Assembly (NCBI GenBank): GCA_020050835.1
Contig: JAGVKB010000139.1
Location: 62,001 to 126,000 of the forward strand
Origin: Candidatus Obscuribacterales bacterium
Lineage (GTDB): Bacteria; Cyanobacteriota; Vampirovibrionia; Obscuribacterales; Obscuribacteraceae
Direction of reading: 5' to 3'
Length of the DNA: 64,000 nucleotides
Shown: positions 14,018 through 38,068 of the stretch, in pieces
Layout: each line of letters opens with the position of its first letter
Position numbering within the stretch: position 1 is the first letter of the stretch
Position numbers and translations under genes: made by a program
The notes under the pieces: generated by a model
Database searches by the model: none
Told to the model about the DNA's origin: nothing
The model's input: only the letters and a program-made list of their open reading frames with translations

Positions 14018-14069
14018 CTGTGTCCATCAAGCTCTTTCATCAGACAAAATGCGCAAACGGAGAAACGTA

Positions 14070-15707: not shown

Positions 15708-15708
15708 C

Positions 15709-16926
15709 ATGACAAAAAATATGACTGTGGTCCAAATTAAAGACCTAGGGAAGATACTCACGGGTTCGACACCCCCAACGGTTCGACCTGAGTTATTCGG
15801 AAACGAATTCCTATTCATAAAGCCGTCCGACATGTCGCTGGGTAACCGGAGGGTATTTGACACTGAAACAAAGTTGTCTGAGCAGGGTAGACAATATCAA
15901 AACAGTAGAATTTTGCCGAAAGATACAACCTGTGTCGTTTGCATTGGAACGATTGGAAAGCTTTGCCTTACAAGTCGCACTTCCTTCACGAATCAACAGT
16001 TAAATGCAGTCATACCTAATACCGATTTCTATGATCCAATTTACGTATTTTATCTACTTTCAACGATAATTCCAAAGTTGCAGAAGCTTCAAGGTGGATC
16101 AGCTTCCGGCCGTGAACACGTAAACAAATCAAACTTTCAAGAGATTCATGTCAGGGTTCACCCGCTGGATGAGCAGCGCAAGATTGCCGGTATCCTTAAT
16201 GCATATGACGATCTAATTGAAAACAATGCCCAGCGAATCGTCGTCTTGGAAGAGATGGCCGAAGCTATTTACCGGGAATGGTTCGTCAACCTTCGGTTCG
16301 TCGGCCACGAAAAAGTAAAATTGATCAACTCCTCGCTGGGAAGGATTCCAGAGGGGTGGAAAGTAACAAACATTGGAGAGGTAGCCACAAATTTTGATCG
16401 GCTTCGTAAGCCCCTATCGTCAATGCAGCGCGCCGACATGAAGGGTGGGTACCCCTACTACGGTGCGGCAAAAATCTTCGATTACATTGACGATTACATC
16501 TTTGACGGCAAGTATCTTCTCGTTGCGGAAGATGGCAGTGTTATCACGCCGAGCCGTAAGCCGGTTTTGCAGATGGCTTACGGCAAGTTCTGGGTCAACA
16601 ACCACACTCACATTCTTCAGGGCAAACATCCGGTTAGCACCGAGCATCTTTACCTCTCGCTTTCCTTTACAGATGTGTCGGGATGTGTGACTGGGGCCGC
16701 ACAGCCGAAAATCACACAGGCCAACATGAACCGTATTCCCTTCATCATGGCGACGGAGAACGTTCAATCGGCATTCTCAGATTTGGTCGTTCCTCTCTTC
16801 GACGAGATTCATCTGTTAAATCGTAAGACTGCCAACCTTCACAGAACACGAGATCTGCTCTTGCCCAAGTTGCTTAGCGGACAACTCAACGTGGAAAAAC
16901 TCGACATTGAAACTATGGAACAGTAG
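15709..16926 (+). CDS. hsdS: Type I restriction specificity subunit
   Basis: A 405-aa HsdS with the usual two target-recognition domains, each followed by a conserved spacer helix: first TRD about 1-160 with LDEQRKIAGILNAYDDLIENN, second about 205-370 ending with RTRDLLLPKLLSGQL. The TRDs choose the two halves of the bipartite DNA target for HsdM and HsdR. The ATG at 15709 follows the hsdM stop by one base. The recognition sequence cannot be read from the protein by eye. Confidence 0.93.
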   Translation: MTKNMTVVQIKDLGKILTGSTPPTVRPELFGNEFLFIKPSDMSLGNRRVFDTETKLSEQGRQYQNSRILPKDTTCVVCIGTIGKLCLTSRTSFTNQQLNAVIPNTDFYDPIYVFYLLSTIIPKLQKLQGGSASGREHVNKSNFQEIHVRVHPLDEQRKIAGILNAYDDLIENNAQRIVVLEEMAEAIYREWFVNLRFVGHEKVKLINSSLGRIPEGWKVTNIGEVATNFDRLRKPLSSMQRADMKGGYPYYGAAKIFDYIDDYIFDGKYLLVAEDGSVITPSRKPVLQMAYGKFWVNNHTHILQGKHPVSTEHLYLSLSFTDVSGCVTGAAQPKITQANMNRIPFIMATENVQSAFSDLVVPLFDEIHLLNRKTANLHRTRDLLLPKLLSGQLNVEKLDIETMEQ

Positions 16927-16937
16927 GACTCTAAAGA

Positions 16938-19900
16938 ATGACCAGCATCGACTACTCTGAAAACGCCTTGGTCGAGAAACCTGCAATTGCACTCTTTGAA
17001 GAGTTGGACTACCGCCATGCAAATTGCTTCTACGAAAGAGTCGGTGGTGCGACATCCACCTTGGGAAGGGAAACGACAAACGATGTAATACTTTGGCCGA
17101 GACTTAGGGCCGCACTGGAAAAACTCAACTATGGTATCGCCCGCGATGCTATAAAATTAGCAATTGATGAAATTGCCAAGGATCGTAGTGCCATGAGTAT
17201 GGCGCATGCCAACCGCGAAATATACAAGTTGCTAAAGGATGGTGTAAAAGTAACTTTCCAGAACGACGAGGGCGAAGAAGCCGATGAAACCGTGCGGATA
17301 ATGGATTGGAATGAACCAACAAACAATGATTTCTTTTTGGCCTCACAGTTCTGGATATCCGGCAACATCTATAAGCGTCGAGCCGATCTTGTTGGATTCG
17401 TTAACGGGCTACCAATGTTGTTTGTTGAACTTAAGAAATCGCACGGCAAGCTGGAACACGCATACAAGCACAATTTAAAGGATTACAAAGCTACCATTCC
17501 GCAACTATTCTGGTACAACGCGTTGATCATTTTGTCCAATGGAAGCGAAGCCAAGATCGGCAGTATGACAGCAGGATGGGAGCACTTTTCAGACTGGAAG
17601 CGAATCAACGACGAGGGTGAACAGGGGATCATTTCGCTGGAAACTGTGATTAGAGGTACTTGTGAAGAATCTCGTTTTCTAGACCTAATAGAAAACTTCA
17701 CTGTCTTTGATGAGTCAAAGGGTGGATTGGTAAAAGTCACAGCGAAGAACCATCAGTACTTGGGCGTAAACAACTCTGTTGCAGCCCTGCGAAAAATTAA
17801 AACTAATCAGGGAAAACTTGGGGTGTTCTGGCACACTCAAGGAAGTGGTAAATCATTTTCAATGGTGTTCTTCTCTCAAAAGGTATTCCGTAAGATTCCC
17901 GGTAACTGGACTTTCCTTGTTGTCACCGACAGAGACGATTTGGATAATCAGATTTACAAAAACTTCCGCAATACTGGAGCCGCAACCCAGGAGTGCCAAG
18001 CTGAGAGTGGAGAGCATCTCAAGCAATTGCTTACCGAAGACCATCGCTTCATATTTACGCTAATTCAAAAATTTGGGACCCCAAAAGGTGAAAGATACCC
18101 AGAGCTCAGCGATCGTAGTGACATCATCGTGATGACCGATGAAGCCCATCGTTCGCAATACGACACGCTGGCTCTCAATATGCGGAACGCCTTACCCAAG
18201 GCTGCGTTTATAGGGTTCACGGGAACACCTTTGATGGCGGGTGAAGAAAAGACAAAAGAGGTCTTTGGTAACTACGTTAGCATTTACAATTTCCGTCAGT
18301 CCATCGAAGACGGAGCTACAGTGCCCTTGTTCTATGAGAACCGAATCCCCGAACTTCAACTTGCTAATGAGAACTTCAAGGAAGAATTGGAAAGCTTGAT
18401 CGAACAGGCTGAACTGGATGACCGGCAAGAAAAAAAAATGGAGCGTGAATTCGCTCGTGAGTATCACCTGATCACTCGGGAAGATCGTTTGGAAAAAGTG
18501 GCTGAAGATTTAGTAGCACACTTTATGGGTCGGCAACAGGGCGGCAAGGGCATGGTCATTTGCATAGATAAGCTTACGACCGTAAAGATGTATGAAAAGG
18601 TGCGGAAGTACTGGTTCGCTTACATTGAGGATCTCAAGGCGGCACGTTCAAACGATCTTAATCGTCCAGTCCTAGAGCAAAAGATAAGCTACATGGAACA
18701 TACCGATATGGCCGTGGTGGTGTCCCAGCAACAGAACGAAGTGGATTACTTCAACGAGAAAGGATTCGACATCACGAAACATCGCGAACGAATAGTAAAG
18801 GAGGATTTGGAAAGCAAGTTCAAAAACCCCGATGATCCTTTTCGACTGGTTTTTGTCTGCGCGATGTGGTTGACCGGCTTCGATGCGCCGTCTGTCTCTA
18901 CAATCTACCTCGACAAGCCGATGAAAAACCACTCGCTCATGCAGACAATTGCGCGGGCGAACCGAGTCTTCGGAGAAAAGAACAACGGACTAATTGTCGA
19001 TTATGTTGGAGTCTTTCGTGACCTGCAAAAAGCCCTGTCCATCTACGGTTCGTCGTCTGGCGGTGGAGTGAAGCCGGGCGAGTGCCCAATTCAGAAGAAG
19101 GAAGAACTGGTCACTGCCCTTAAGGAAGCCATTGCCAAAGCAACAACCTTTTGCGCAGAAAGAGGTGTCAGTCTTGACTCTATTCTGAAGTCCGAAGGTT
19201 TCCAGCGCGTCGCATTCTTGGATGACGCCACGACACACTTGGTTGACATCCAAGTAGTCACAGCTATCGACGACTCGGTTGAAAAAATCATCCTGAACGA
19301 TGACCTAAAGAAAAAGTATCTATCGCTCGTTGCTCTCGTGGTCCGACTTTATAAAGCAATTTTGCCAGACCAAAAAGCAAACGAATTTGCTCCCATCAAA
19401 ACATGTCTTGCGGTGCTAGCAGACAAGATTCGATCATTGACTGAAGAAACCGACATCGATGACTTAATGGATAAAGTGGACAAGCTCCTTGATGAATCTA
19501 TCGCGACGGTGGGCTATGTCATTCACGAGAGCGAGGGGTCATATCTCGTGGACCTAGGCCAAATCGATTTCGAGGCGTTGAAGGCTCAATTTGCTGCGGG
19601 TCGCAAGCACACTGAAGCAGAGAAATTGAAGGGATTCGTCAGCAAGAAGGTAACACGCATGGTGCAGCTCAATAAGAGCAGAACCGATTTATTGGAGAAG
19701 TTCAAAAAACTGATCGAAGAGTACAACAGTGGTTTGAATGTTGACTTGTTCTTCACCAAGCTTATGTCATTTGCAAAGGAATTGAACGAAGAGGAGAAGC
19801 GGGGCGTATCTGAGCAATTGACAGAAGAAGAACTAGCGATTTTTGATATCCTAATGAAGCCTGACCTTGAAATTACTACTAAGGAACGGAAAGAAGTAAA

Positions 19901-20129
19901 AGCAGTTGCTCGGAAGCTACTGCAAACCCTCAAGCAAGCGAAACTGGTGCTGGACTGGCGGAAAAAATTGCAGACTAGGGCTGACGTGTATTCTACAGTC
20001 AAGACCGTCTTGGACGAACTCCCCCGTATCTTCACGCCTGAGTTGTATGAAACTAAATGTGACTGCATATATCAACACGTTTATGACTGTTACCAGGGCG
20101 AAGGAGAGAGCATTTACCAAAGTGCCTAA
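16938..20129 (+). CDS. hsdR: Type I restriction endonuclease subunit
   Basis: A 1063-aa HsdR, the translocating ATPase and nuclease. The PD-(D/E)xK nuclease site is visible as RAD150 and VELKK (E164, K166). Walker A is TQGSGKS (300-306), the DEAD-like box is TDEAHRSQYD, and a later helicase motif reads QTIARANRVFGEKNNG. Length and order match functional HsdR proteins. It begins 11 bases after hsdS with AGGA upstream and closes the operon. Together with hsdM and hsdS the type I system looks complete and intact. Confidence 0.95.
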   Translation: MTSIDYSENALVEKPAIALFEELDYRHANCFYERVGGATSTLGRETTNDVILWPRLRAALEKLNYGIARDAIKLAIDEIAKDRSAMSMAHANREIYKLLKDGVKVTFQNDEGEEADETVRIMDWNEPTNNDFFLASQFWISGNIYKRRADLVGFVNGLPMLFVELKKSHGKLEHAYKHNLKDYKATIPQLFWYNALIILSNGSEAKIGSMTAGWEHFSDWKRINDEGEQGIISLETVIRGTCEESRFLDLIENFTVFDESKGGLVKVTAKNHQYLGVNNSVAALRKIKTNQGKLGVFWHTQGSGKSFSMVFFSQKVFRKIPGNWTFLVVTDRDDLDNQIYKNFRNTGAATQECQAESGEHLKQLLTEDHRFIFTLIQKFGTPKGERYPELSDRSDIIVMTDEAHRSQYDTLALNMRNALPKAAFIGFTGTPLMAGEEKTKEVFGNYVSIYNFRQSIEDGATVPLFYENRIPELQLANENFKEELESLIEQAELDDRQEKKMEREFAREYHLITREDRLEKVAEDLVAHFMGRQQGGKGMVICIDKLTTVKMYEKVRKYWFAYIEDLKAARSNDLNRPVLEQKISYMEHTDMAVVVSQQQNEVDYFNEKGFDITKHRERIVKEDLESKFKNPDDPFRLVFVCAMWLTGFDAPSVSTIYLDKPMKNHSLMQTIARANRVFGEKNNGLIVDYVGVFRDLQKALSIYGSSSGGGVKPGECPIQKKEELVTALKEAIAKATTFCAERGVSLDSILKSEGFQRVAFLDDATTHLVDIQVVTAIDDSVEKIILNDDLKKKYLSLVALVVRLYKAILPDQKANEFAPIKTCLAVLADKIRSLTEETDIDDLMDKVDKLLDESIATVGYVIHESEGSYLVDLGQIDFEALKAQFAAGRKHTEAEKLKGFVSKKVTRMVQLNKSRTDLLEKFKKLIEEYNSGLNVDLFFTKLMSFAKELNEEEKRGVSEQLTEEELAIFDILMKPDLEITTKERKEVKAVARKLLQTLKQAKLVLDWRKKLQTRADVYSTVKTVLDELPRIFTPELYETKCDCIYQHVYDCYQGEGESIYQSA

Positions 20130-21664: not shown

Positions 21665-21768
21665 GCCTTACCCTGCGATTTTGCCTTACCCTAAATGACC
21701 TTTGGGTTTCGCTACAAGCGGTAGGCTGTCATTTTCGGGGGCAAAACGCCTTACCCTTTGCCTTACCC
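21665..21768. repeat. Two pairs of GCCTTACCC repeats before int
   Basis: GCCTTACCC occurs at 21665-21673 and 21683-21691 (18 bp apart), and at 21748-21756 and 21760-21768 (12 bp apart), between int and the att repeat. The same 12-bp-spaced pair recurs at 27101-27121 beside the second att copy, and a single copy lies at 22154-22162. The position fits integrase arm-type or directionality-factor binding sites. Confidence 0.6.
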
Positions 21769-21903
21769 AAATTAAGTATAAATCGAAAAATTTGAGTGCG
21801 CTAGAATTACAATGAAATCGTCACAAAGCCTGACAGAGATAAGGATAGCGAGAATTAAGAAAGGTCCGAAAAAAGCCGGAAAAATGGTAACCTTTAGACT
21901 CAT

Positions 21904-21945
21904 AACCCAAAGGTCGTAAGTTCAAATCTTACCCCCGCAACCAAT
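21904..21945 (+). repeat. att copy 1: 3' half of initiator tRNA-fMet
   Basis: A 42-bp sequence identical to 26991-27032. With the preceding CTCAT (from 21899) it reads as an initiator tRNA from the CAU anticodon loop through the T arm (GTAAG-TTCAAAT-CTTAC) to CCCCGCAACCA. The 5' half (acceptor strand and D arm) is absent upstream, so this is an attachment-site remnant, not a working tRNA. A terminator hairpin follows at 21953-21986. Confidence 0.82.
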
Positions 21946-21952
21946 CTACATG

Positions 21953-21986
21953 AGGCTTTCGGCGATTCGTACCCGAAAGCCTTTTT
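21953..21986 (+). terminator. Terminator after att copy 1
   Basis: Stem AGGCTTTCGG (21953-21962) with CCGAAAGCCT (21973-21982), followed by a run of five T. It lies ten bases after the tRNA CCA end, as expected for a former tRNA terminator. Confidence 0.75.
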
Positions 21987-21992
21987 GTTTCT

Positions 21993-22240
21993 CTATCGTT
22001 TTTCTATCGCGATTCGCAGCCCGCTTGAACGCGAACAAATTTGCATGCAGAATTCTTGCTAAACCAGCTCTGACAGCCAGACTTGGCAATGTACTGAACA
22101 ATCGAAAAACCCAAGCCAACTGCGCAATATAGCCTCCAGCTTGCCTTTTCCACGCCTTACCCTTCGCCAGCAAGAATGCTGAAACACTCCGCGCGATGTT
22201 TTTGCCTTCTATCGCAGCCTCTATCGCATCCCTCTATCGC
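21993..22240. repeat. CTATCG direct repeats
   Basis: CTATCGT/C occurs at 21993 and 22004 (11 bp apart), and CTATCGC at 22209, 22221 and 22234 (12 and 13 bp apart). These share the roughly one-turn spacing of the GCCT repeats that follow. Confidence 0.45.
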
Positions 22241-22277
22241 GCCAACTGGCTGGCATGAAGACTGTGGCGATTTCCGC

Positions 22278-22385
22278 GCCTAATGCAATGCCTAATGCAG
22301 CGCCTAACGCAATGCCTAACGCAGTGGCTGCGGAACGCCTAGCGCAATGCCTAGCGCAGTGCTTGCCTAACCCATTGCCTAACCC
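22278..22385. repeat. Eight iteron-like GCCTNNNSC units at 12-bp spacing
   Basis: Nine-base units start at 22278, 22290, 22302, 22314, 22337, 22349, 22365 and 22377. They come in identical pairs: GCCTAATGC twice, GCCTAACGC twice, GCCTAGCGC twice, GCCTAACCC twice. Members of each pair are exactly 12 bp apart. The array lies inside the second island next to att copy 1. It could bind the integrase arm domain, a replication initiator or a partition-like protein. No gene is credible in this stretch (21946-22689). Confidence 0.7.
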
Positions 22386-22689
22386 ACACATCGGCGATTC
22401 GCCACTGTGACGCGGATTGGCGTCTCTTTGCTGACGCTTCAATGGAAAATGTCATCGAATGTTTGTCTCGCAAAAGCATTCAGGTTCTGGATTTCACGAG
22501 ATGTATTATGATTGGCATTATGAAAATCCGTCTGACAATACAAACGACCGTCGATGCAATCCCAGCCAATAGAGGCTAGGAAGCAGTCTCGTCGTGTATT
22601 AGGACCGGATCAAAATCTTTCGACTCCAAATTTGCCGACGAAGCTGCTCATAGAAGCACCGGAATCAACGCAGCTAGGAGGGAGAATCA

Positions 22690-23295
22690 ATGGCTATCTG
22701 GTTTACGTCCGACCATCACTTCGGACATACAAACATCATCAAATACTGCGACCGCCCATTTGGCACAACGCATGAGATGAACGTGGCTATGGAAGCTGCT
22801 TGGAACCGAGTCGTCGACAAAGATGATGTTGTTTATTATCTCGGTGATTTCGCAATGGACGTTCGACTGGTGCCGTTGCTCGTCGAGCGATTGAAAGGCG
22901 CGAAAATTCTGGTCCCTGGCAATCACGATAAGTGCTGGCAAAAGAAGGATACTTCACATCGTTGGGTGAAACACTACTTGGATGCTGGCTTTCAGTCGGT
23001 AGAGCAGTCGATGCGCCTGGAGATCGCGGGGCAATCCGTGTTGCTAAATCACCTACCTTACCGCAACGAAGCCGACCCGCAGCAGCGTTACTTCCTACAA
23101 CGCCCCATCGATGATGGCGGCTGGTTAATTCACGGACACGTCCACAATCGCTGGAAAGTATCTGGTCGCCAGATCAATGTAAGCGTCGAGATGTGGGACT
23201 TCGAGCCGGTGAGCCTCGATTGCATCGCGAGAATAATTGGAGCGGGTCCGGCAACAAGAGCGGAAGGCAGCAACGAGACCTACGCAGAAAGCTAG
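22690..23295 (+). CDS. Calcineurin-like metallophosphoesterase
   Basis: A 201-aa phosphoesterase with the complete metal-binding set: DHHFGH near the N-terminus, YYLGDFA, GNHDK, and GHVHNRW near residue 150. Such short YfcE/MJ0936-like enzymes hydrolyse phosphodiesters or phosphomonoesters, but the substrate here is unknown. An AGGAGG lies about ten bases before the ATG. A broken relative sits at 30922-31375 with nearly identical wording around the GHVHNRWKVSGRQINVSVE block. It is cargo of the second island, beside the AbiE pair. Confidence 0.85.
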   Translation: MAIWFTSDHHFGHTNIIKYCDRPFGTTHEMNVAMEAAWNRVVDKDDVVYYLGDFAMDVRLVPLLVERLKGAKILVPGNHDKCWQKKDTSHRWVKHYLDAGFQSVEQSMRLEIAGQSVLLNHLPYRNEADPQQRYFLQRPIDDGGWLIHGHVHNRWKVSGRQINVSVEMWDFEPVSLDCIARIIGAGPATRAEGSNETYAES

Positions 23296-23298
23296 TCG

Positions 23299-24243
23299 TC
23301 AGAGGCGGTCGATATATTCTTTGATCTTGTCGGCGATTTCGGCAAGCGATGGTTGTCCTGCATAGTAAAGCGCTTGCGTTCCTTTGTACTCTCTTTCTAA
23401 CTTTGCCACTTCTTCCGCATTCTCGAATTGGAACGCTGGGTTAGCCGCTATGCGCAGTTCGTCTGCCTTTGGAAAGCGCTGTTTCTTTCTCTCTTCGTAC
23501 TTGTCCGTTCCTATGAAATCCTTCACTGCATCAATATCAAGCAGGCAATATACATCGTAGTAATGGCGAAGGAAATTGGTCGGCAATTTCCCTGTCTCAC
23601 GAAACTTCCGAAACTTCGTAGTGATCGTTTGGAGTTTTTCAACGAAGGTAAAGGCAGGGTTATAGCAGGGAATGCCGAGCGCACGATTGTCGATGACATC
23701 GACTTTGCTCGCTTTAGCCGCTTCCATTGCCCAAGATGAAATGTCCACTGGTGTATTGGGCGTGGTGTCGTCAAACCCAATCTCTAACAGGATGCCGGGC
23801 TTTACTCCAACTAGTTCTTCAGTCTTGGTTTCATAAGTTAGCCTGATGCCACCATTGCGAAGTCGCTCGTCATCATATTCGGTGGCACGCGAGACGGTTA
23901 CATCAGGAACTTTTATCTCTGCGGCTAGCCAGTCATAAAACTTTCGACGCGATTCTATATGAATGTCCTTGTCGTGATTCTTGCCCGTTTTCACATCCAT
24001 GTCGGGCGGAGGTTCAAATCGAATATCGATGTCTTCCGAAAAGCGTTTGATGATTCCGAATCCCTTCGATAGAGAGGTTCCGCCTTTCAACTCGAAAGTG
24101 AAACTCTGACCCTTTAGTCCCCACAGGCAGTGCATGATCCAATAGTCTTTCTCGACCAAGGTCGGCGTGATGCTGTCCCGCTCTGCGACAATTCGCAACA
24201 GGTCCGCGAAATCTGCGCGCTTGTGCAGGAATTCAGGCATCAA
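23299..24243 (-). CDS. AbiEii-type nucleotidyltransferase toxin
   Basis: A 314-aa protein of the AbiEii family, the toxin of type IV-like AbiE abortive-infection and toxin-antitoxin systems. The nucleotidyltransferase signature is ELKGGTSLSKGF (51-62) followed by SEDIDIRF (69-76), with EKDYW upstream. A C-terminal helical region including PTNFLRHYYDVYCLL completes the family pattern. It overlaps the AbiEi-like gene by 11 bases and is co-transcribed with it. Family members block growth by nucleotidyl transfer, in some cases to tRNA. Confidence 0.9.
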   Translation of the reverse strand: MMPEFLHKRADFADLLRIVAERDSITPTLVEKDYWIMHCLWGLKGQSFTFELKGGTSLSKGFGIIKRFSEDIDIRFEPPPDMDVKTGKNHDKDIHIESRRKFYDWLAAEIKVPDVTVSRATEYDDERLRNGGIRLTYETKTEELVGVKPGILLEIGFDDTTPNTPVDISSWAMEAAKASKVDVIDNRALGIPCYNPAFTFVEKLQTITTKFRKFRETGKLPTNFLRHYYDVYCLLDIDAVKDFIGTDKYEERKKQRFPKADELRIAANPAFQFENAEEVAKLEREYKGTQALYYAGQPSLAEIADKIKEYIDRL

Positions 24244-24835
24244 GCCATTCGTTGATCAGTTTTTTCGTTCCTACAGTTCCGAATTTTGAGGCGGCCTGTA
24301 GCAACTTGTGACGATCAAACTGATGCGATTTCGCTTGAGCATTGCGCATCAAGTCATCACGTTCTTCAGCGAGTTCATTCAGATTATTGAGCAAATCAAC
24401 CAACAGAAACTCTGAGGAAAGCTTGTTCGGAAAACGCGGTTTCATTCGGAAGTCAAACGTGCGATTGCCAAACGTGAACCTACCGTGTCTTTTGTGGTTA
24501 TAGACAACGGTGCGATTGTAGAGCTGAGTTCCACCCAATCCAAGGGTGTTGTAGCTGGCTGGTGACAGCAACAAGAAATCGTCGTCACGCAAAAATGCAG
24601 CAACAAGCTCGCTGTCCTCTGGTGGAACCGGTCCAAATGCGGACTGGCGAGGAACGTAATACAACCCTTGGGCAAGCTTTCTTAGCCGCCCAGAGTCTTG
24701 CAACTGTTTCAAATGTCGATCTACTGCATTCGAAGCCGGTGCGAGATCTTCCCGCCGGTATACGCCGCCAGCTCGAAGTCGCCGGGACAGAAGGGCCGCG
24801 GCGGTAGGTTTTGGTGTAGTAGCCAATGCGTTCAT
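24233..24835 (-). CDS. AbiEi-like antitoxin
   Basis: A 200-aa basic protein upstream of and overlapping the AbiEii toxin. The N-terminal winged-helix region reads GGVYRREDLAPASNAVDRHLKQLQDSGRLRKLAQGLYY, the usual layout in which an HTH domain ends in a G-L-Y-Y turn. The rest resembles the AbiEi C-terminal domain (LLSPASYNTLGL, TVVYNHKRHGRF). AbiEi antitoxins repress their own operon by binding inverted repeats. A near-consensus promoter with CCCAAT/ATTGGG arms lies just upstream (24869-24915). Confidence 0.82.
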   Translation of the reverse strand: MNALATTPKPTAAALLSRRLRAGGVYRREDLAPASNAVDRHLKQLQDSGRLRKLAQGLYYVPRQSAFGPVPPEDSELVAAFLRDDDFLLLSPASYNTLGLGGTQLYNRTVVYNHKRHGRFTFGNRTFDFRMKPRFPNKLSSEFLLVDLLNNLNELAEERDDLMRNAQAKSHQFDRHKLLQAASKFGTVGTKKLINEWLDA

Positions 24836-24868
24836 CGGATGCCTGAATTTTCATTGAAGTTTCATGCA

Positions 24869-24915
24869 CCCAATATAGCATACACGCCGAATATATGTCA
24901 AATATACCGATTGGG
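24869..24915 (-). promoter_or_regulatory. abiE promoter flanked by inverted repeat
   Basis: On the minus strand TTGACA (24896-24901), an 18-bp spacer and TATATT (24872-24877) form a near-consensus promoter for the abiE pair. CCCAAT (24869-24874) and ATTGGG (24910-24915) are inverted arms bracketing it, a plausible autoregulatory operator. Confidence 0.7.
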
Positions 24916-25005
24916 CAATAAAGAGATAGCCTCAGGTCTGCTACCCATTATGGGGGAGCCTGCGGCTGAGCCTCAATTTTGCCCGCACATGGACGGATAG
25001 CGAAC

Positions 25006-25027
25006 GGGGCGCCCTTGCGGACGCCCC
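25006..25027 (-). terminator. GC-rich hairpin after membrane-protein gene
   Basis: GGGGCG (25006-25011) pairs with CGCCCC (25022-25027), 22 bases beyond the stop of the leftward membrane-protein gene. No T tract is seen, so termination strength is uncertain. Confidence 0.4.
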
Positions 25028-25048
25028 ATTTGAATTGATTCGCAGTGC

Positions 25049-25615
25049 TTAAATCACTGCCACAGCGCCACCGAGCGCGGACTCGATGTTGGCTGTTAAC
25101 GAGGAGATTATCGAATCACACGCCGCGTAGTTAACGCCTTCCACAGTGGGTCTGAAGTCCACTAGGACAGCTGTTGTTCCACGTTCGGTTGGCTGGACTT
25201 GTATCTCGACTGCAAGGAAGCGCTGTAGGCGCTCCTTTCGTGTGTGAATCTGTCCGCGCGCGTCGCCTTCGAATCTTGTAAATTCATCAATGAAGCGAAG
25301 ATTCGCTGTGATTCTGCCCGTCTGTGTATCCGCCGTTACGACGTGCCACTTGTCGCCATAGTTGTATGAGATTTCCGCGATAATGTCGCGAATTTTCGCG
25401 AATGCGATCTTTGCCGGAACCTTGTATTCTCGCGGTTGAGGATGGAGAAATTTCGCGCGTTCTTCGCATGCGCTTTTGAAGATTGGAATTGCGGCGAGTA
25501 TGCCGAGCACTAGTCCAGGCACTACGCCTGCTCCTGCATCATGCGATGCTTCGCCGATGAGTGCTCCTGTTAGAAGGAACACGAATGTTCCGACAATGAT
25601 TGCTACGATGGCCAT
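25049..25615 (-). CDS. Membrane protein, second copy paired with virD4 remnant
   Basis: A 188-aa protein homologous to the 223-aa protein at 9766-10437. It shares the N-terminal hydrophobic segments (VGTFVFLLTGALIGE, PGLVLGILAAI) and the central PREYKVP, SYNYGDKWH, TQTGRITANLRF and QIHTRKERLQR blocks. It lacks the C-terminal transmembrane helix of that copy. Its start overlaps the 3' end of the broken virD4 by 13 bases, so in the ancestral element the two were translated as a pair. The TPR and J-domain genes of the intact module are missing here. Confidence 0.7.
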   Translation of the reverse strand: MAIVAIIVGTFVFLLTGALIGEASHDAGAGVVPGLVLGILAAIPIFKSACEERAKFLHPQPREYKVPAKIAFAKIRDIIAEISYNYGDKWHVVTADTQTGRITANLRFIDEFTRFEGDARGQIHTRKERLQRFLAVEIQVQPTERGTTAVLVDFRPTVEGVNYAACDSIISSLTANIESALGGAVAVI

Positions 25616-26990
25616 ACGTCATCAACCTCCGGTGAGTCTTGTTGTTGAAAGTCATTAGTGTTGTTTTCGTGCATGCGTTCTTGCTGGCTGCGTCGATTTG
25701 AATTCCGCTTCTTATCGTTGCGGCGATTGTGGCGGCTTCGGTTCTTTCCTTCAGGTTTGCTCTCCTCTTTCGGCTGGCTCGTCTCTGGTCGCTCAGTTCT
25801 TTCGCGCTTTCGAATTGATTCGGAAATTTCGTGCGTCGCTCGTTCCGGCGGCGGATACGCGAGAGCGTGGTGATAGGCAGTCGGCGATGTCAGCGCAATC
25901 TTGAGCGGCCAGGTGTCATTCGTGAAAGCGATGACCTCGCCGCTTAAGTTGATCAGTTCATCCGGTGTTGCAAGCGATCTTCCTTGAATGAACTCCTGAA
26001 CTCGTCCGGTATCGCTTACGCTGACCTCTTCGATGGTCGTTCTTCCGAGTGCTTCGCTCAGTGCACGAGCCTCACGAAAGTTCTTCTGTCGGAAGTAGAT
26101 TTGCGTTGCCGGTTGATCGAAGATTATTTGCGCCTCCTTTTGTGAGTACACTCGCTCAAGCTGGAAATAGTTTTGAAACCCGAGCACTAGACTTAGCTTG
26201 GCTTTTCTGACGATTGATAGAACATTCGCAATGTTTGCGATCTTGCCGAAGTTTGTGAATTCATCGAGAAAGAGCGATGTTGGATACTTCATCGCCGATT
26301 TTGTATCGAGCAGGTAATCGAGGAGAAAGTTGACCAGGAGCGATCCGATTAGTTTGCTATCGCGAGAGCGGCTTGGAATGGCTATGTAGAAGGTGAAGAG
26401 CTGTTTCTTCAGTGCTTCAAAATCGACATCTGTCTTTTCAGTCAGTGCGACCAGTTGATCCGTGATCCATGGATTCAACTTTGTCATTAGCCCCGACAAG
26501 ACCCCGAATCGGAAGTTCTCTGAGGTTGACCCTAGCCATCCTTCAAACTCCTTTTTGAGCGAGTTCTGAGGGGCTTCTGGCGAGTTCTTGGCGTACCTTA
26601 CTCACGCCCGATAGCAGCAGCCATCTGAGAGCGCCGATATGTCCCCTCTCTGGTTCGCTTGCCGCCGCATGCAGTATCAGTGAAACGAGGAGTTGTTTCT
26701 CGGACCTGTCCCATGTTGGGTCGATTCTTCCTTCCTCGCCGCTGCCATTCATGATGATCAAGTCGGCTAGTTTTTCGGCTTCTTTTGCTTTCTCCAGTGG
26801 TGGAGCCCATTTCACCCGGTCTACTGGATTGATTCGGGTTGATGACATATCAGCGGGATTGAAGGAGAAGATTGTGTGACCTGCTTGTTTACGCCATCCC
26901 GCAGTTAACGTGTACAGTTCGCCCGGTTCGTAACCTGGAGTTGCCTCCGTCACGATCATGTTGCTTCCGAGCCTTTCGATAAGGCTTTGG
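25603..26990 (-). pseudogene. Truncated, frameshifted virD4-like gene
   Basis: Homologue of the VirD4-type ATPase at 7214-9190, broken in two ways. First, the 5' part including Walker A is missing: homology starts at LIERLG exactly where the second tRNA-fMet att repeat ends (26991). Second, the frame shifts near 26550 in a run of five A. The upstream part ends ELAQKGV, while the other frame continues EFEGWLGSTSENFRFG into the intact C-terminal half with Walker B (LFLDEFTNFG). Reading the antisense of the att repeat adds an artificial N-terminus (MVAGVRFELTTFGF). It marks the decayed relative of the mobilization module. Confidence 0.88.
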
Positions 26991-27032
26991 AACCCAAAGG
27001 TCGTAAGTTCAAATCTTACCCCCGCAACCAAT
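26991..27032 (+). repeat. att copy 2: 3' half of initiator tRNA-fMet
   Basis: Identical 42-bp copy of 21904-21945 in the same orientation, again without the 5' tRNA half. It cuts off the virD4 remnant and is followed by a terminator hairpin (27048-27078) and a 12-bp-spaced GCCTTACCC pair (27101-27121). It marks one end of the 5-kb second island. Confidence 0.82.
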
Positions 27033-27047: not shown

Positions 27048-27078
27048 ACCGGCAGTTTCGAGAGAAGTGCCGGTTTTT
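27048..27078 (+). terminator. Terminator after att copy 2
   Basis: Stem ACCGGCA (27048-27054) with TGCCGGT (27068-27074) followed by a T run, shortly after the CCA end of the tRNA remnant. Confidence 0.7.
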
Positions 27079-27100
27079 ATTGGGGTAGCCTACAGAGCGC

Positions 27101-27121
27101 GCCTTACCCTCTGCCTTACCC
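27101..27121. repeat. GCCTTACCC pair beside att copy 2
   Basis: Two GCCTTACCC units at 27101 and 27113, exactly 12 bp apart, matching the pair at 21748/21760 next to the integrase. Confidence 0.6.
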
Positions 27122-27289: not shown

Positions 27290-28858
27290 CTATGAGTGTA
27301 GATTTGCTCCAGGCGCCGAATCGAAACCATCGAATGCGCCTCGAACTATTTCTTCCAACTCGGACAGCTCTTCATCTGTCAAGGCAGCGAATTCGCTCAT
27401 TCTTCTCTTATTCGGAAGCATGCCACCATTTCTGTGTACAAACAGCACAAACTGTTCAGCAATGAGATCCGGCATCTCAACAACGTTCATGACGTCCCTT
27501 ACAGCTTGATCGCGGCGTGTGAGATAGTCAATTTCTCTCGGCAGGTCGGCATCTATAGTGCGCTTCACACAGCTATAGAGAAACTCCGCAGCCTCAGTGC
27601 AATCGAAGTATCTATAGAGGTCGGCAGTGTCATTTAAGACGTGTACATTCCCCTTGACCGTTGGTTCCCATTCAATAAACTCCATGAGCCGACCGGAATG
27701 CGCCTGAAGCATTTCACGATACTTATCTATCCAATCCAACATTACGGATGAAACAGGGAAAAGCATTCCAGGCGGCGCAAACTGCCGATCTGATAGGCTG
27801 TGATGAATTAGACATCGGTGAAGTCTTCCGTTCCCGTCAGCGAATGGGTGAACGTAGACAAATCCAAAAGCGGTTGCAGCGGCTTGAAGAACAGGATCTA
27901 AATTACCTTCCTTCATGATGGCATTAGATTCGATTAGCGAACTGATCAGATGCTCAACGTCCTCCGGCTTGGCACCTATGAACTCGGGAAGCGGCTCACC
28001 ATCAGGAGTGTGTTCGCCGAGAAAAACACCCTCAGTACGCAATCCGCCTTGTACGAAACGGTTGTCTTCAATAAGAATTCCATGAAGACGAATCAATTCT
28101 CCCACTGACAGAGGGTTCTTACCCGCCTGCATGACGGCTCGCCCCCATCGTTCGATTCGATTTCGAGGCGGCCGCTCTCCTTCTATTTGAAAACTAGCCT
28201 GACTGTCTGCCAGGAGCAAAAAACTTGCAGCGCGAGAAATGACGGACTTGCTCACGCGTCCAATGACATTTAGTGCGGATTTCGAGAGGTCGCTCTCAGA
28301 GTAGGACTTTAACGTTTCCGTCTTTCTGATAATAGGACAAAAACTGGAAGTCCCCAAAAGGTTGTCACGCACTTTATGCCGACGCGATAGCGTGCCACTA
28401 GATTTGGTGAAATACTTGTCGTTATCGAGCAAATCAACCGATGTGACATTAGGCGCATCTGGAACTGCAAGCTTATTTCCAGTCAGCAATTCATAGAGGT
28501 ACCAGGCGCGACGCGTCAGCACACTGTTGGGCGCGGACAACACATATTGCTCAATTGCTTCCGCTGGCAGAGAAATGAACACCCGCTTTAGAACAAGTAG
28601 ATCTATGTTTTCGTACCGCATTGCGAAATTTAGGTGTGCCTGAACAGTGGGTTCAAGCTCGTGCCGTTTGCTATAGATTTTCCAACCGCGATCTTGTCTT
28701 ATGTGTCCTTTTATATTTTGCTCTGAGATACAACTAGGTTCTCGAACAGGAGCCGGAACATCAAAGGCATGAACGAGGGCAGATAGTCCGGCAAGGCTAG
28801 TGAGGGACGGCAAAGCCGATTCTTGAAACAGGGCTGGTTTTTGGCTGGGCAAGTCCAT
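27290..28858 (-). CDS. Fic-domain AMP-transferase with autoinhibitory motif
   Basis: A 522-aa Fic protein. The catalytic motif HPFADGNGRLHR (337-348) is complete, so the enzyme should transfer AMP (or another phosphate-containing group) from a nucleotide to protein hydroxyls. An inhibitory-helix motif S-x-x-x-E-G is present upstream as SFQIEG (222-227), the arrangement of class II Fic proteins that are self-inhibited. The first 190 residues are of unknown type; the C-terminal 120 residues may be a winged-helix or partner-binding region. The promoter region carries six phased repeats (28863-29022). Target proteins are unknown. Confidence 0.85.
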   Translation of the reverse strand: MDLPSQKPALFQESALPSLTSLAGLSALVHAFDVPAPVREPSCISEQNIKGHIRQDRGWKIYSKRHELEPTVQAHLNFAMRYENIDLLVLKRVFISLPAEAIEQYVLSAPNSVLTRRAWYLYELLTGNKLAVPDAPNVTSVDLLDNDKYFTKSSGTLSRRHKVRDNLLGTSSFCPIIRKTETLKSYSESDLSKSALNVIGRVSKSVISRAASFLLLADSQASFQIEGERPPRNRIERWGRAVMQAGKNPLSVGELIRLHGILIEDNRFVQGGLRTEGVFLGEHTPDGEPLPEFIGAKPEDVEHLISSLIESNAIMKEGNLDPVLQAAATAFGFVYVHPFADGNGRLHRCLIHHSLSDRQFAPPGMLFPVSSVMLDWIDKYREMLQAHSGRLMEFIEWEPTVKGNVHVLNDTADLYRYFDCTEAAEFLYSCVKRTIDADLPREIDYLTRRDQAVRDVMNVVEMPDLIAEQFVLFVHRNGGMLPNKRRMSEFAALTDEELSELEEIVRGAFDGFDSAPGANLHS

Positions 28859-28862
28859 TTTC

Positions 28863-29022
28863 GGTTCCAGATCGTTCTTTTTGGCTCCAGATGTATATAT
28901 TTTATCAATAGAGGTTCCAGATTGCTCAAAAATTCATATCCAAGTTCCGATTTTCTCACGTTAGGCTAAATTGCCGCAAAAACACCGCAACAGGTTCCAA
29001 TTTCTTCAATATGGTTCCAAAC
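28863..29022 (-). promoter_or_regulatory. Six GGTTCCARAT repeats on 10-bp phase upstream of fic
   Basis: The pentamer GTTCC (GCTCC once) inside GGTTCCARAT-like units starts at 28864, 28884, 28914, 28944, 28994 and 29014. The distances are 20, 30, 30, 50 and 20 bp. The first unit ends 12 bases before the extended leader of fic. The array fits cooperative binding of a regulator to one face of the helix, most likely controlling fic. Confidence 0.7.
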
Positions 29023-29122
29023 TTCTCTTTTTCACCATCCACGCTCCATTTTGACTGGGTGACAACAAACAAACCACAAGAAGGAGTTGACGCGCATTCA
29101 ATGCTTCGATAATCTTGGAAAT

Positions 29123-29422
29123 ATGAAAACGCAAAACGCAGTCACGGCTCTAGCCGCACTTGCACAGGAAACACGCCTAGAAATATTTCGACTTTTGGTC
29201 AGAAAAGGAGCTGCCGGAATGGCAGCCGGCGATCTGAGTACTCATTTTGGCATGCCACCAGCTACGATGTCATTCCACTTAAAGGAACTCACAAATGCTG
29301 AATTGATCGTTTCGCGACGCGAAAGTAGATCGATTATCTATTCAGCGAACTATGACCAAATGCAAGAGTTGCTCGGCTTCTTGATGAAAAACTGCTGCGC
29401 AGATAACGGAGGCAAATGCTAA
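29123..29422 (+). CDS. arsR: ArsR-family arsenic-responsive repressor
   Basis: A 99-aa winged-helix protein of the ArsR family: ALAQETRLEIFRLLVRKG, then AGDLSTHFGMPPATMSFHLKELTNAELI (recognition helix) and a wing SRRESRSIIYSA. The C-terminal CC and a final Cys (NCCADNGGKC) are likely As(III) ligands, an arrangement seen in C-terminal-site ArsR proteins. It should repress the ars operon until arsenite binds. The ATG at 29123 is preferred; an upstream TTG at 29087 abuts its own AGGAG with no spacing. It overlaps the next gene's possible start. Confidence 0.85.
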   Translation: MKTQNAVTALAALAQETRLEIFRLLVRKGAAGMAAGDLSTHFGMPPATMSFHLKELTNAELIVSRRESRSIIYSANYDQMQELLGFLMKNCCADNGGKC

Positions 29423-29895
29423 TGAAGAGATTCCATGTACATGTTGCTGTGGCAAATTTGTCCCAGTCAATTCAGTTCTATTCGACGTTTTTCAACACTC
29501 CGCCTTCCGTCGAAAAGGAAGATTATGCGAAGTGGATGCTGGAAGATCCGCGCATAAATTTCGCGATTTCAACCAGAGGCAGAGAGCCCGGTTTAGATCA
29601 CCTGGGAATACAGGTTGAAACTTCAGATGATCTCAAAGAAATTTCAGTGCGCCTAAAAGCGGCTCAGCAGCCAATCTTGGAACAAGATCAAACCACGTGT
29701 TGCTACGCCAAAGCTGATAAAACTTGGGTGCAGGATCCACAAGGAATTGCGTGGGAAAGCTTTTACACAACCGGAGCCGCAACCACCTATGGCGAGGATG
29801 CTCAATTCGAAACTCAGACAAGTTCCGCCTGCTGTTCGCCTATGCCCGAAGTTATTCCTGTGAGTTTTGGAAAGAAGAAGGACGGTTGCTCGTGA
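29422..29895 (+). CDS. arsI: ArsI-type organoarsenical C-As lyase
   Basis: A 157-aa vicinal-oxygen-chelate (glyoxalase-fold) protein. The vicinal cysteines of ArsI are visible as TTCCYAKADKTWVQDP (Cys93-Cys94), with metal ligand candidates His5 or His7, His60 (LDHLG) and Glu112 (WESF). ArsI is an Fe(II) dioxygenase that removes the methyl group from trivalent methylarsenicals; close CadI relatives exist, so the precise activity is inferred. GGAGG (29408-29412) lies nine bases before the ATG at 29422. The GTG of arsC overlaps its stop. Confidence 0.85.
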   Translation: MKRFHVHVAVANLSQSIQFYSTFFNTPPSVEKEDYAKWMLEDPRINFAISTRGREPGLDHLGIQVETSDDLKEISVRLKAAQQPILEQDQTTCCYAKADKTWVQDPQGIAWESFYTTGAATTYGEDAQFETQTSSACCSPMPEVIPVSFGKKKDGCS

Positions 29896-30317
29896 AGAAA
29901 GTGATTTTCGCCTGCATCCACAATGCAGGACGCTCACAAATGGCGGCAGCGTTTTTCAATCAATCTGTCGATCAGAGGAAAGCTCATGCGGTTTCGGCTG
30001 GTACACAGCCTGCGGAAAAAGTCCATGACTGCGTCGTCAAGGCAATGCAACAATTGGATATTGATCTTTCCGATGTAAAACCCCAACTTCTTACGGAGGA
30101 GTTGGCAAACGATGCCGCTCTTCTCGTAACGATGGGCTGCGGAGAAGCCTGTCCCTATGTGCCTGGGCTTCGCCGAGAAGATTGGCCACTGCCAGATCCT
30201 AAGGGCAAAGCCGACGACGAAGTCTGCACAATCCGCGACGGAATTAAGACTCGCGTGCTCAGGCTGCTCGATGATCTGGGGGCACTAGATTGTTGCTCTG
30301 AGGCTTTAGAGGCGTAA
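29892..30317 (+). CDS. arsC: Thioredoxin-type arsenate reductase
   Basis: A 141-aa low-molecular-weight-phosphatase-fold arsenate reductase. The P-loop is C-x5-R (CIHNAGR, Cys8-Arg14), and the redox pair used in the thioredoxin-coupled mechanism is MGCGEACP (about 80-87). It reduces As(V) to As(III). The GTG start at 29892 overlaps the arsI stop by four bases (GTGA), so the operon is translationally coupled. An As(III) exporter would be expected next, but the operon appears truncated there. Confidence 0.88.
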   Translation: MKKVIFACIHNAGRSQMAAAFFNQSVDQRKAHAVSAGTQPAEKVHDCVVKAMQQLDIDLSDVKPQLLTEELANDAALLVTMGCGEACPYVPGLRREDWPLPDPKGKADDEVCTIRDGIKTRVLRLLDDLGALDCCSEALEA

Positions 30318-30319
30318 CT

Positions 30320-30367
30320 ATGGAAACACTTAAAGCCGAAAGCGCGCCGGTCTCTTCCTTCTGCTGA
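30320..30367 (+). pseudogene. Truncated start of a fourth ars gene
   Basis: Two bases after arsC an ATG opens a 15-codon frame (METLKAESAPVSSFC) that ends at TGA. Position and spacing suggest the first codons of another ars gene, for example an efflux permease or methyltransferase, cut by a rearrangement. It is too short to identify. Confidence 0.3.
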
Positions 30368-30457
30368 CCCATGTACGGCAATGGTAAGACTCTTATTGGT
30401 GTTTAGGCACTTATGCGATGAAATTTATCGGCGCGCCTTGAAGTACGAGGCGGACGT

Positions 30458-30820
30458 CTACACTAACAGTGCATTCTCTTGTATCGCTGTAAGCTTGAAC
30501 GGGAGCACCGGGGACGCCAGTCGATTTCTACAGGCTGAGATGATTATTGAATACATGCGCTCAGCATCGCCATAGCGTTTCTCTGTTCTATATGCTTCTG
30601 CTGTCGACATGCGAAGACTTAGCGTGCCTAGAGTCTCCCCGCCCCCCGTACTACTCAAAGTCCGGTCCAACGTACGCTGGTATTCGTCAGCATTCATCGA
30701 TTCTGCAGATTGTTGGAGACATACCAGCGCCAATACAGAAAGCAACAAGGAAATCACGGGTAAGGGAAGAACAGAATTTTCATACAAACATTTGCCCTTA
30801 AAATTGCTCGCTCCGATCAT
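30458..30820 (-). CDS. Truncated-looking exported TPR protein
   Basis: A 120-aa product with a signal or anchor segment (LPLPVISLLLSVLALVCLQ) followed by helices that look like the beginning of a TPR domain (AEAYRTEKRYGDAERMYSIIIS). The start at 30820 is chosen because GGGG lies five bases upstream. The downstream repeats one would expect, as in the protein at 35514-36938, are missing, so it is probably a 3'-truncated remnant. Confidence 0.45.
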   Translation of the reverse strand: MIGASNFKGKCLYENSVLPLPVISLLLSVLALVCLQQSAESMNADEYQRTLDRTLSSTGGGETLGTLSLRMSTAEAYRTEKRYGDAERMYSIIISACRNRLASPVLPFKLTAIQENALLV

Positions 30821-30921
30821 GCTCACCCCAATAGATCTTCCCCACACTATTTTGCGCAGAACCATTATGGATACGTCCTCACAATGTTCAATACGAACGG
30901 GGGCCACGTTCATCGGATTAC

Positions 30922-31375
30922 GCAACACTGTATATTACCTGGGCGACTTTGCTATGCTACCACATTTAGTGGCAGATGTCTTGCCTCAATTGAATGGCAA
31001 AAAGCATCTCATAGCAGGAAATCATGACCGCTGCCACCCGAAGATTGGCGCGAGTAAATGGCTCCAGGCATGTATTGATGCCGGGTGCGTGTCTGTGCAG
31101 ATTGATATGCAAACGGAAATTGCTGGCGAGATGGTCTTGTTGCACCATTTCCATATCGCGCAGAAACCGAACCAAAGCAGAAGTATTATGGTCAGCGTCC
31201 TGTCGATGGCGGTGGTTGGTTAATTCACGGACACGTTCATAATCGCTGGAAAGTCTCTGGGCGGCAGATCAATGTCAGCGTCGAGAACTGGAATTTCGAA
31301 CCGGTTGGACTGGAAACAATAGCTTCCATCATCAAGGTTGGTCCCCAGCTTGCAGCCGAGGGACGCTACGATTAG
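30922..31375 (+). pseudogene. Broken metallophosphoesterase copy
   Basis: Homologue of the intact gene at 22690-23295. The 5' third is missing (homology starts at TVYYLGDFAM). GNHDRC follows, then a single-base loss near 31150 shifts the frame, after which GGGWLIHGHVHNRWKVSGRQ and the C-terminus continue to TAG at 31375. The 3' region is closest to the intact copy in DNA sequence. It is evidence of duplication and decay of accessory genes. Confidence 0.85.
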
Positions 31376-31399
31376 AGCGCTTTCCAGTTGACGGGCATT

Positions 31400-31467
31400 T
31401 TCTCGCGCGAGAATTCAGTCACAAACAAGAAATTTCCGATTGGCCCCACTTTTCTCGCGCGAGAAAA
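31400..31467. promoter_or_regulatory. Twin palindromes TTCTCGCGCGAGAA
   Basis: The 14-bp palindrome occurs at 31400-31413 and 31452-31465; the second extends to an 18-bp perfect palindrome (31450-31467). Their centres are 52 bp apart, about five helical turns. They precede the broken AbiEi-like gene and probably form its autoregulatory operator. Confidence 0.6.
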
Positions 31468-31480
31468 TGAGGTGTAATAG

Positions 31481-32577
31481 GAAATTACGGAAGCAGAGAA
31501 AGACATTCTTGAATATGTACAGTCCGGCAAGCTAGAGCTGCCGCCGCTCAGATTCATGCCAACAGCTGAGTCGATTGAAAGAGGCGACATTGAGCCTGAT
31601 GTGCTGGTTCAGACGAGTTGGCAAGGAAGGACGTATGCCTTTGTCGGCGAGGTAAAGCGGTACGGTAGCGACAAGTCTGTCAGTGAGGCGGCAGAACAGG
31701 CTCGGAAGTACGCAGAACGGCTGCAAGTCAACCCGCTCGTGATAGTGCCCTGGCTTTCTAACGAGCAGCTTCTTTCTCTTGAACAGAGGAATATCAGTGG
31801 CGTCGATCTCTGCGGCAACGGAATTGTACTCGTGCCGGGCGAACTGCTGGTGTTCAGGACCGGGCTGCCAAACAAGTTTCCGACATCCAGTCTAATGCGG
31901 CGAGTCTACGAGAGGACAAGTTCTCTCGTAGACTCGCCTTTCTGCTGCGGCCGCAATATAACTCTGTCTCCGAAATTCTCGATGAGATAACAGCGAGAGG
32001 CGGAAGCATTACTCTTCCCACTGTCTCCAAGGCGCTGAAGCAGTTGGAAGAGGACGTAGTAATCGAAAAGTCGTCGAAGAGTATCCGCACATTGCAGTCA
32101 GACAAATTATTGGACCGGCTGAAGTCAAACTATGAGCCGCCGAAGCCGCGCGGTTTTGTTCGATGTAAGCTAACCACCAAAAACAACGCCAGTATCGGCG
32201 CAATCCTCTTCGAAGCTGCCAAACAGGCGGGTGAGCGAATTGTGCTTTCAGGAGAAAGTTCGGCGAACTTCTATGCAACTATGGCGAAGGAACCGATTGA
32301 CACTTTCTATTGCACCGAGACTACGTCGCTACAGCTGGAAGAATTGAATGCTGAGATGGACGTCTTCAGCAGATTTCCGAACGTCGAGCTTAAGAAGTGC
32401 GACGCGGAGATTGTTTACTTCGATATGCGAAACATGAACGGCTACAATGTTGCCTCTCCAATTCAGGCTTACCTTGAGCTAGCGAATTCAGACAAGCGCG
32501 GCCAGGAAGTTGCAGAACAGATCCGCAAGAAGATCATTCAAGATATGCAAGATCTTCAGGAGAAATCTGGCAAATGA
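31481..32577 (+). pseudogene. Frameshifted AbiEi-like antitoxin gene
   Basis: Two frames together give one AbiEi-family protein. The first (from 31481) contains a DUF-like region with VLVQTSWQGRTYAFVGEVK and LVIVPWLS, up to FRTGLPNKFPTSSLMRRVYERTSSL. The second resumes near 31930 with RLAFLLRPQYNSVSEILDEI and a winged helix (TLPTVSKALKQLEED), continuing to 32577. A one-base deletion near 31930 explains the shift. There is no convincing ATG for the first part. Its end overlaps the following nucleotidyltransferase by four bases (ATGA), as expected for an AbiE operon. Confidence 0.7.
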
Positions 32578-37942: not shown

Positions 37943-37994
37943 AGAGCCTCCGGATTTATTGTTGAAAGGGAACGAATCGCTTTATTTTTGTTAA

Positions 37995-38068
37995 TGGAGC
38001 GGGTAGCGGGAATCGAACCCGCGTGTGCAGCTTGGAAGGCTGCCGTTCTACCATTGAACTACACCCGC
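37995..38068 (-). tRNA. tRNA-Gly (anticodon TCC)
   Basis: On the minus strand a complete 74-nt cloverleaf. Acceptor GCGGGTG pairs with TACCCGC, the D arm is GTTCAATGGTAGAAC, the anticodon arm GCAGC-CTTCCAA-GCTGC gives anticodon TCC, the T arm contains GGTTCGATTCC, and CCA is encoded. It reads toward the dehydratase gene. Confidence 0.96.

Follow-up and report, generated by a model that had tools for sequence, protein, structure and literature searches.

The 64,000-nucleotide stretch analysed here (the window; C149:62001-126000 in our numbering of contigs) comes from the genome of a Candidatus Obscuribacterales bacterium (G000; 7.0 Mb, 154 contigs, 95.7% complete), and mobile elements appear to have accumulated in it at the 3' half of an initiator transfer RNA (tRNA) gene, tRNA-fMet. 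The reading that we favour, with a probability of about 0.82, is a three-unit tandem array of lambda-type tyrosine-integrase elements that grew by accretion in the only initiator tRNA gene detected and whose paired arm sites carry integrase-related codes. From left to right, the locus consists of tRNA-fMet, element A (26.0 kb), attachment site att1, remnant B (5.1 kb), att2, remnant C (about 8-10 kb) and the chromosome.

A first-pass annotation made from the window alone had described two copies of a 42-bp direct repeat, each being the 3' half of an initiator tRNA without its 5' half and each followed by a terminator, and had predicted an intact gene further to the left. All these claims held up. 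The repeat matched exactly at positions 21904-21945 and 26991-27032, both copies being the 3' half of tRNA-fMet; ARAGORN detected zero fMet genes inside the window; and a hairpin with a T run could be read from the sequence after each copy. The intact tRNA-fMet was found at G000:C149:57837-57913, 4.1 kb to the left of the window and in the expected orientation. It is a tRNA-Met(CAT), which we take to be of the initiator class from its anticodon stem (GGG-CTCATAA-CCC), and its 3' half is identical to both window copies. A pattern search of the whole genome returned exactly three 3'-half copies, all on C149, the leftmost being the complete tRNA, while BLAST with the tRNA and its flank as the query also found only these three copies. 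Only one intact initiator gene was thus seen, and it looks like the only one that the bacterium has. The identity with the tRNA covers 47 bp at att1, from tRNA position 33 onward (CTCATAACCC...CCAAT), and runs from AACCC at att2. When the tRNA 3' half and the sequence that follows it at the intact gene were compared with the DNA to the right of att2, 134 nt aligned with 87% identity; the latter DNA is thus again an element end, and the array contains three units rather than two. Therefore, of the original proposal that two related elements were inserted successively at one tRNA, the successive insertion stands but the count does not, and the relatedness is retained for C, which has the arm code of A, but not for B, whose tRNA-side arm is of another class.

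The integrase that had been placed beside the first copy is indeed intact, being a complete Phage_integrase open reading frame (ORF) about 240 bp from att1. Its residues R256, K283, H350, R353, H376 and Y386 were invariant across 11 aligned integrases, and its fold matched those of Tn1549 Int (Z 17.6) and lambda Int (Z 16.5) from about residue 106 onward, so that both the catalytic R-K-H-R-H-Y set and the core-binding and catalytic fold of a lambda-type integrase are present. In the N-terminal part, strands (27-69) and a helix (76-97) were predicted with modest confidence; searches against PDB profiles and NCBIfam named only general tyrosine recombinases. Element A has the layout of a tRNA island, with an intact tRNA gene at one end, a same-orientation tRNA gene fragment at the other and the integrase between them, and, by having its own integrase and relaxase, it is a candidate integrative and mobilizable element (IME); a single-stranded DNA-binding protein (SSB) is encoded as well. 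The VirB4 mating-pore model PF03135, a single family model, gave zero matches in the whole G000 genome, and A therefore looks mobilizable rather than self-conjugative. The VirD4 of A had nine matches in the same genome, two of which are the halves of the VirD4 stump in B; by this one model, then, G000 combines several coupling proteins with no recognised mating pore.

A comparison with 50 genomes of the host family (Obscuribacterales) showed that tRNA-fMet is a widely used hotspot. The fMet 3'-half pattern occurred in 43 of these genomes and in more than one copy in 14, the latter number being an upper bound as some contig ends overlap. The relatives identified through the integrase are labelled as Ca. 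Obscuribacter, Melainabacteria or Obscuribacterales metagenome-assembled genomes (MAGs). A close integrase (E ≤ 1e-60) was present in 12 of the 50 genomes, nine of these integrases being full length with at least 63% identity. An exact fMet 3' half lies about 180-250 bp upstream of eight of the nine full-length integrases, and a decayed one in the ninth (G009), showing that the relatives carry the same att core and not different ones. In seven of the eight exact copies the sequence shared with the tRNA starts 0-2 bases to the left of CTCATAA, and in G026 it starts 7 bases to its left; from there rightward all positions agree, in line with the crossover in the anticodon loop that the first-pass annotation had suggested. 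Furthermore, the congeners G060 and G062 form an occupied/empty pair: the G062 tRNA and its downstream DNA matched the right junction of G060 (95% over 806 bp), and the G062 upstream DNA and tRNA matched its left side (84% over 1576 bp).

The flanks of these cores hold tandem 9-bp units, 12 bp apart, that consist of GCC and a 6-base code. A degenerate pattern for such pairs gave 46 matches in 21 of the 50 family genomes versus four for the reversed pattern used as the control, and all eight matches in G000 fell in the fMet array. By reading, 42 of the 46 have an fMet 3' half no more than 500 bp away (a decayed one in one case), two are at contig ends and two are elsewhere. Removal of two unrelated places (G026:C210 and G007:C509) and of three readings that overlapped others in the same stacks left 41 pairs, 37 of which were homotypic, compared with a mean of 11.4 and a maximum of 21 after shuffling. 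Their positions are also fixed: the integrase-side pair is located at -158/-159 in seven elements, the exceptions being G064 (sites at -170 and -146) and G009 (pair preceding the decayed core), and the first tRNA-side pair at +108 to +110. Arm-type repeats are thus found by sequence on both sides of the core, as in lambda-type systems. Integrases of the TTACCC/GTACCC group shared 72-77% identity with that of A, and those of the AAYGC/AGCGC group 62-65%. The same code was present at both ends in six of the seven assignable elements, on one contig in A, G026 and G009 (where the second tRNA-side unit is imperfect) and with the ends on separate contigs in G005, G064 and G022; G063 and G015 were not assessable and stayed outside this count. 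These data suggest that the paired sites are integrase arm sites and that the 6-base code sets the integrase specificity. Outside the family, 332 class members yielded nine pattern matches, none being a pair of the listed codes, and in viral contigs both relatives of the integrase and the TAACCC pair gave zero matches. Regardless of the code, most TTACCC- and AAYGC-type flanks also contain ATTGGGGTAG at +80 to +95, past the terminator, which is perhaps another binding site.

The tRNA-side arm of B differs in class, with sites of six or more codes (CTATCG, TTACCC, TAATGC, TAACGC, TAGCGC and TAACCC) between +87 and +480. G001 and G072:C497 also have an arm of this class, the former next to the intact tRNA and the latter next to a copy, in both cases on the right, with the same order and nearly the same spacing; compared with them, B contains one additional block of pairs. 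Among the three arms, 66 of 70 arm columns are identical, versus 137 of 243 columns elsewhere. A motif-free search for any repeated 8-mer, in which the "left flank" rows of G072 and G007 were ignored as indexing artefacts, returned 43 pairs in 25,177 bp of right flank, whereas 250,000 bp of control contained 36; of the 24 distal pairs, 21 used codes that are also present as first pairs. We further counted code groups in 60 copies, 52 of which have a flank of at least 200 bp: 18 flanks had no code group, 17 had the TTACCC group only, and nine had at least three groups, a number reached in 0 of 2000 control windows. Multi-code arms may let several integrases act on one element. A bolder and tentative proposal, which we would put somewhat below even odds, is that a B-type arm works as a composite "skeleton key", that is, a selected array with one pair for every integrase specificity in circulation at the tRNA; an element that lacks an integrase or lies next to the tRNA could then be excised and carried by any of several integrases, and the address code would evolve by arm-pair exchange on a fixed core. 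Among open-licence papers, we found none on islands at fMet in this bacterial group or on arms that combine several specificities.

The growth of the array can be pictured as follows. Each element would bring a copy of the tRNA 3' half together with a terminator, and strand exchange in the anticodon loop would leave an intact tRNA on the left, equipped with the 3' half and terminator of the element, while the displaced 3' half would stay on the right, where the next unit begins. Position and decay suggest the insertion order C, then B, then A, the last being the only unit with an integrase. This integrase would probably bind the core via the inverted repeat of the anticodon stem as well as the paired 9-bp arm sites at -158 (integrase side) and +109 (tRNA side), and A would be excised by recombination between the tRNA junction and att1. 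An integrase in a distal unit, when excising a block that starts at the tRNA, would need its own sites in the tRNA-side arm; a multi-code arm would hence serve several integrases, and a B-like element could be mobilised in cis by whichever integrase sits in the array. An essential translation gene would, in this scheme, receive its 3' half, T stem included, from mobile elements. Within five of the eight genera with at least two parsed tRNAs (G066, whose tRNA was not parsed, was left out), initiator tRNAs differ in their T stem while having a constant 5' half, whereas the 5' half differs in two other genera; in G071 (C234 and C179; L099 and L098), the tRNA has GACAG/CTGTC versus GTAAG/CTTAC in the displaced copy. 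Such T-stem differences fit the replacement of the 3' half by integration.

Several observations weigh against this picture. In G060, the integrase end has TAACGC but the two visible tRNA-side arms are TTACCC-like; an assembly gap intervenes. The 50 genomes searched yielded no integrase whose own arm contains a TAACCC or CTATCG pair. CTATCG pairs were genome-wide no commoner than the control (16 versus 15), yet nine of the 16 are at fMet flanks; since their abundance did not exceed the control, we discarded the notion that they mark one integrase across the genome. For C, a search at a word size of 5 revealed no fMet fragment on the right-hand side, the only tRNA matches (8-11 nt exact and one of 15 nt inexact) being judged as chance. 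Moreover, the right end of B, the VirD4 stump, has no arm pair, so B would be unable to excise alone under the lambda scheme, and the left junction of att2 is not an obvious att site. The first-pass annotation had the virD4 homologue cut exactly at the second copy; the remnant does end at att2, but the boundary there falls within the loop, unlike a typical att junction. The idea that att2 was a secondary integration site in VirD4 was rejected, as the junction by reading shares only TT and the remainder is unlike the core.

The distal pairs could be explained otherwise. They might be extra arm sites for the element's own integrase, which would tolerate all GCC-NNNNNN variants, the "codes" then being drift. 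Several arm sites on one side are described for the phages Pixie and L5 in the accessible text of PMC3203893, and a GCC[T/G] frame is common to all codes but CTATCG; however, we regard this explanation as rather unlikely, because it sits poorly with the homotypy of the pairs, with the single code common to both ends in six of seven elements, and with five class II flanks (G009, G010, G016, G022 and G023) in which the first-position code varies but the site at about +237 stays TAACCC (TAACC in the second unit of G022). It is more doubtful still that the distal pairs are relics of the tRNA-side arms of earlier elements, stacked through successive insertion and deletion. Although the multiple copies in up to 14 of 50 genomes indicate frequent tandem insertion and B and C have clearly decayed, the outer pairs of B are only 24-35 bp apart without any tRNA 3' half or terminator before them, and the order and spacing were kept across three genera despite diverged intervening DNA.

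Binding of a directionality factor or regulator, rather than integrases, has in our opinion a similarly low probability. Excisionase sites are often tandem repeats, and the failure to find, in the 50 genomes, an integrase whose own arm has TAACCC or CTATCG would agree with this; but a separate factor would explain neither TAACCC at the first, cognate position (+110) in G030 nor TTACCC at both first and distal positions. Finally, it is barely credible that the repeat copies are duplications or assembly artefacts instead of element ends: the assembly is MAG-like and the contigs of some relatives break at the repeat, but the three copies in G000 lie on one contig with differing flanks and the relatives offer the occupied/empty pair.

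Tandem tRNA islands are already known, and, judged from sequence, the arm codes and the composite multi-code arm are the new part. According to the accessible text of the sources cited here, one close likeness is with Dehalococcoides, which has tandem islands at the single-copy ssrA gene with direct repeats of its 3' end, 15 of them without an integration module and proposed to be cis-mobilizable elements (CIMEs) (PMC3146451); unlike the fMet array, these use a serine recombinase at another gene in another phylum, and arm sites or codes are not mentioned in that text. Islander lists 125 tandems of two or more and four of three or more among 3919 islands, and its tRNA and transfer-messenger RNA islands with an anticodon-centred phage attachment site (attP) share the 3' tRNA gene fragment, the anticodon-loop crossover and the restored tRNA; in contrast to the integrase-less B and C, each tandem member there must have an integrase (PMC4383910). 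In the attP of cluster K and related mycobacteriophages, arm-site pairs likewise flank a tRNA or transfer-messenger RNA core with a terminator between core and arm, and Pixie and Tweety have the same core but different arm sequences; single arms combining those of several phages, as in B, are not described in the text seen (PMC3203893). In streptococcal CIME/IME accretion, a decayed element keeps its att sites, a new element enters the same site and both may be co-mobilised, but a multi-specificity arm is not described in the text seen, and B also has no right-hand arm (PMC5704250). By analogy, the accretion and cis-mobilisation logic of the fMet array is that of CIMEs (PMC5704250), as suggested for the Dehalococcoides ssrA islands (PMC3146451); the accessible parts of PMC10865867, PMC9897764 and PMC4741004 contained no closer case. 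If the codes are integrase specificities, the locus would offer about seven naturally occurring specificities for arm sites around a single invariant core, five of them with a known integrase, which would make integrase arm recognition decodable and explain the joint or separate movement of tandem islands.

Features of the fMet array and its right flank (window positions; P, integrase-side arm; P', tRNA-side arm; arm assignments are putative)
Feature	Position	Strand	Basis
Relaxase (MobA/VirD2 nuclease) of A	5662..7206	+	Pfam 3e-8; RlxS-like match below cut-off
VirD4-type coupling protein of A	7214..9190	+	profile match
Type I restriction-modification of A: two N6-methyltransferase ORFs, specificity subunit, HsdR	12056..20129	+	Pfam
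Tyrosine integrase of A, 423 aa	20389..21660	-	Pfam Phage_integrase 1.2e-21
P-arm pair of A, TTACCC x2, -158 from core	21748..21768	+	sequence; same position in 7 elements with a pair
att1, tRNA-fMet 3' half from anticodon loop; right end of A, left end of B	21899..21945	+	sequence comparison
Terminator hairpin right of att1	21953..21987	+	sequence
P' arm of B, inner part: CTATCG pair (+87/+98), single TTACCC (+248), CTATCG triplet (+303 to +328)	21993..22240	+	sequence
P' arm of B, TAATGC pair	22278..22298	+	sequence
P' arm of B, TAACGC pair	22302..22322	+	sequence
P' arm of B, TAGCGC pair	22337..22357	+	sequence
P' arm of B, TAACCC pair	22365..22385	+	sequence
Calcineurin-like phosphoesterase, B cargo	22690..23295	+	Pfam
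AbiEii nucleotidyltransferase and DUF6088-like partner, toxin-antitoxin-like, B cargo	23299..24835	-	Pfam; DUF6088 just below cut-off
VirD4/TraG coupling-protein remnant, N-terminal 184 residues lost at att2, internal frameshift	25603..26990	-	profile match, comparison
att2, tRNA-fMet 3' half	26991..27032	+	sequence comparison
Terminator hairpin right of att2	27048..27079	+	sequence
P' arm pair of C, TTACCC x2, at +108	27101..27121	+	sequence
C cargo: Fic, glyoxalase, low-molecular-weight phosphatase, phosphoesterase-like DNA, AbiEi-like, HipA	27290..35016	.	Pfam
Chromosomal right flank: PALP-family gene (cysteine-synthase type by reading) and tRNA-Gly(TCC)	36941..38068	-	Pfam, ARAGORN, relatives

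A profile search found no integrase ORF between att1 and att2, and B, in which complete transfer genes are absent too, is a candidate CIME. The homology of its VirD4 stump starts at VirD4 residue 185, directly past the Walker A motif. We rejected the idea that B copies a single intact element, since its matches to G072:C497, G009, G030 and G026 cover parts only; it is therefore a mosaic. The segments of C match DNA just downstream of fMet in different relatives, the Fic segment in G060, G030 and beside a copy in G072, and others in G069, G027, G023 and G009, with one piece beyond the second att in G026; hence C is a mosaic of hotspot cargo. The chromosome resumes with the PALP gene and tRNA-Gly, and a single stretch of G017 matches the two. 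In uninterrupted relatives (e.g., G019, G008, G006 and G021), fMet is closely followed by this tRNA-Gly, and relatives without arm sites have it close to fMet.

Some further observations concern the hotspot and the cargo. In G060 (L110; G060:C63), a 3.1-kb unit between the tRNA and a second 3' half had only a Fic-region homologue that could be recognised, and no integrase was found in it. In G030 (L201:6897-8192; G030:C26), a distant tyrosine integrase (about 25% identity) adjoins an fMet 3' half; its pair at -215, TAGCCGATT, is a different one. More than one integrase lineage thus uses the fMet site. Around the phosphoesterase gene, positions 23056-23219 in B and 31151-31314 in C are 75% identical, which suggests that the two remnants share cargo there. 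Just beyond, at 31381-31486 in C, there are repeats and a palindrome with CTCGCGCGAG.

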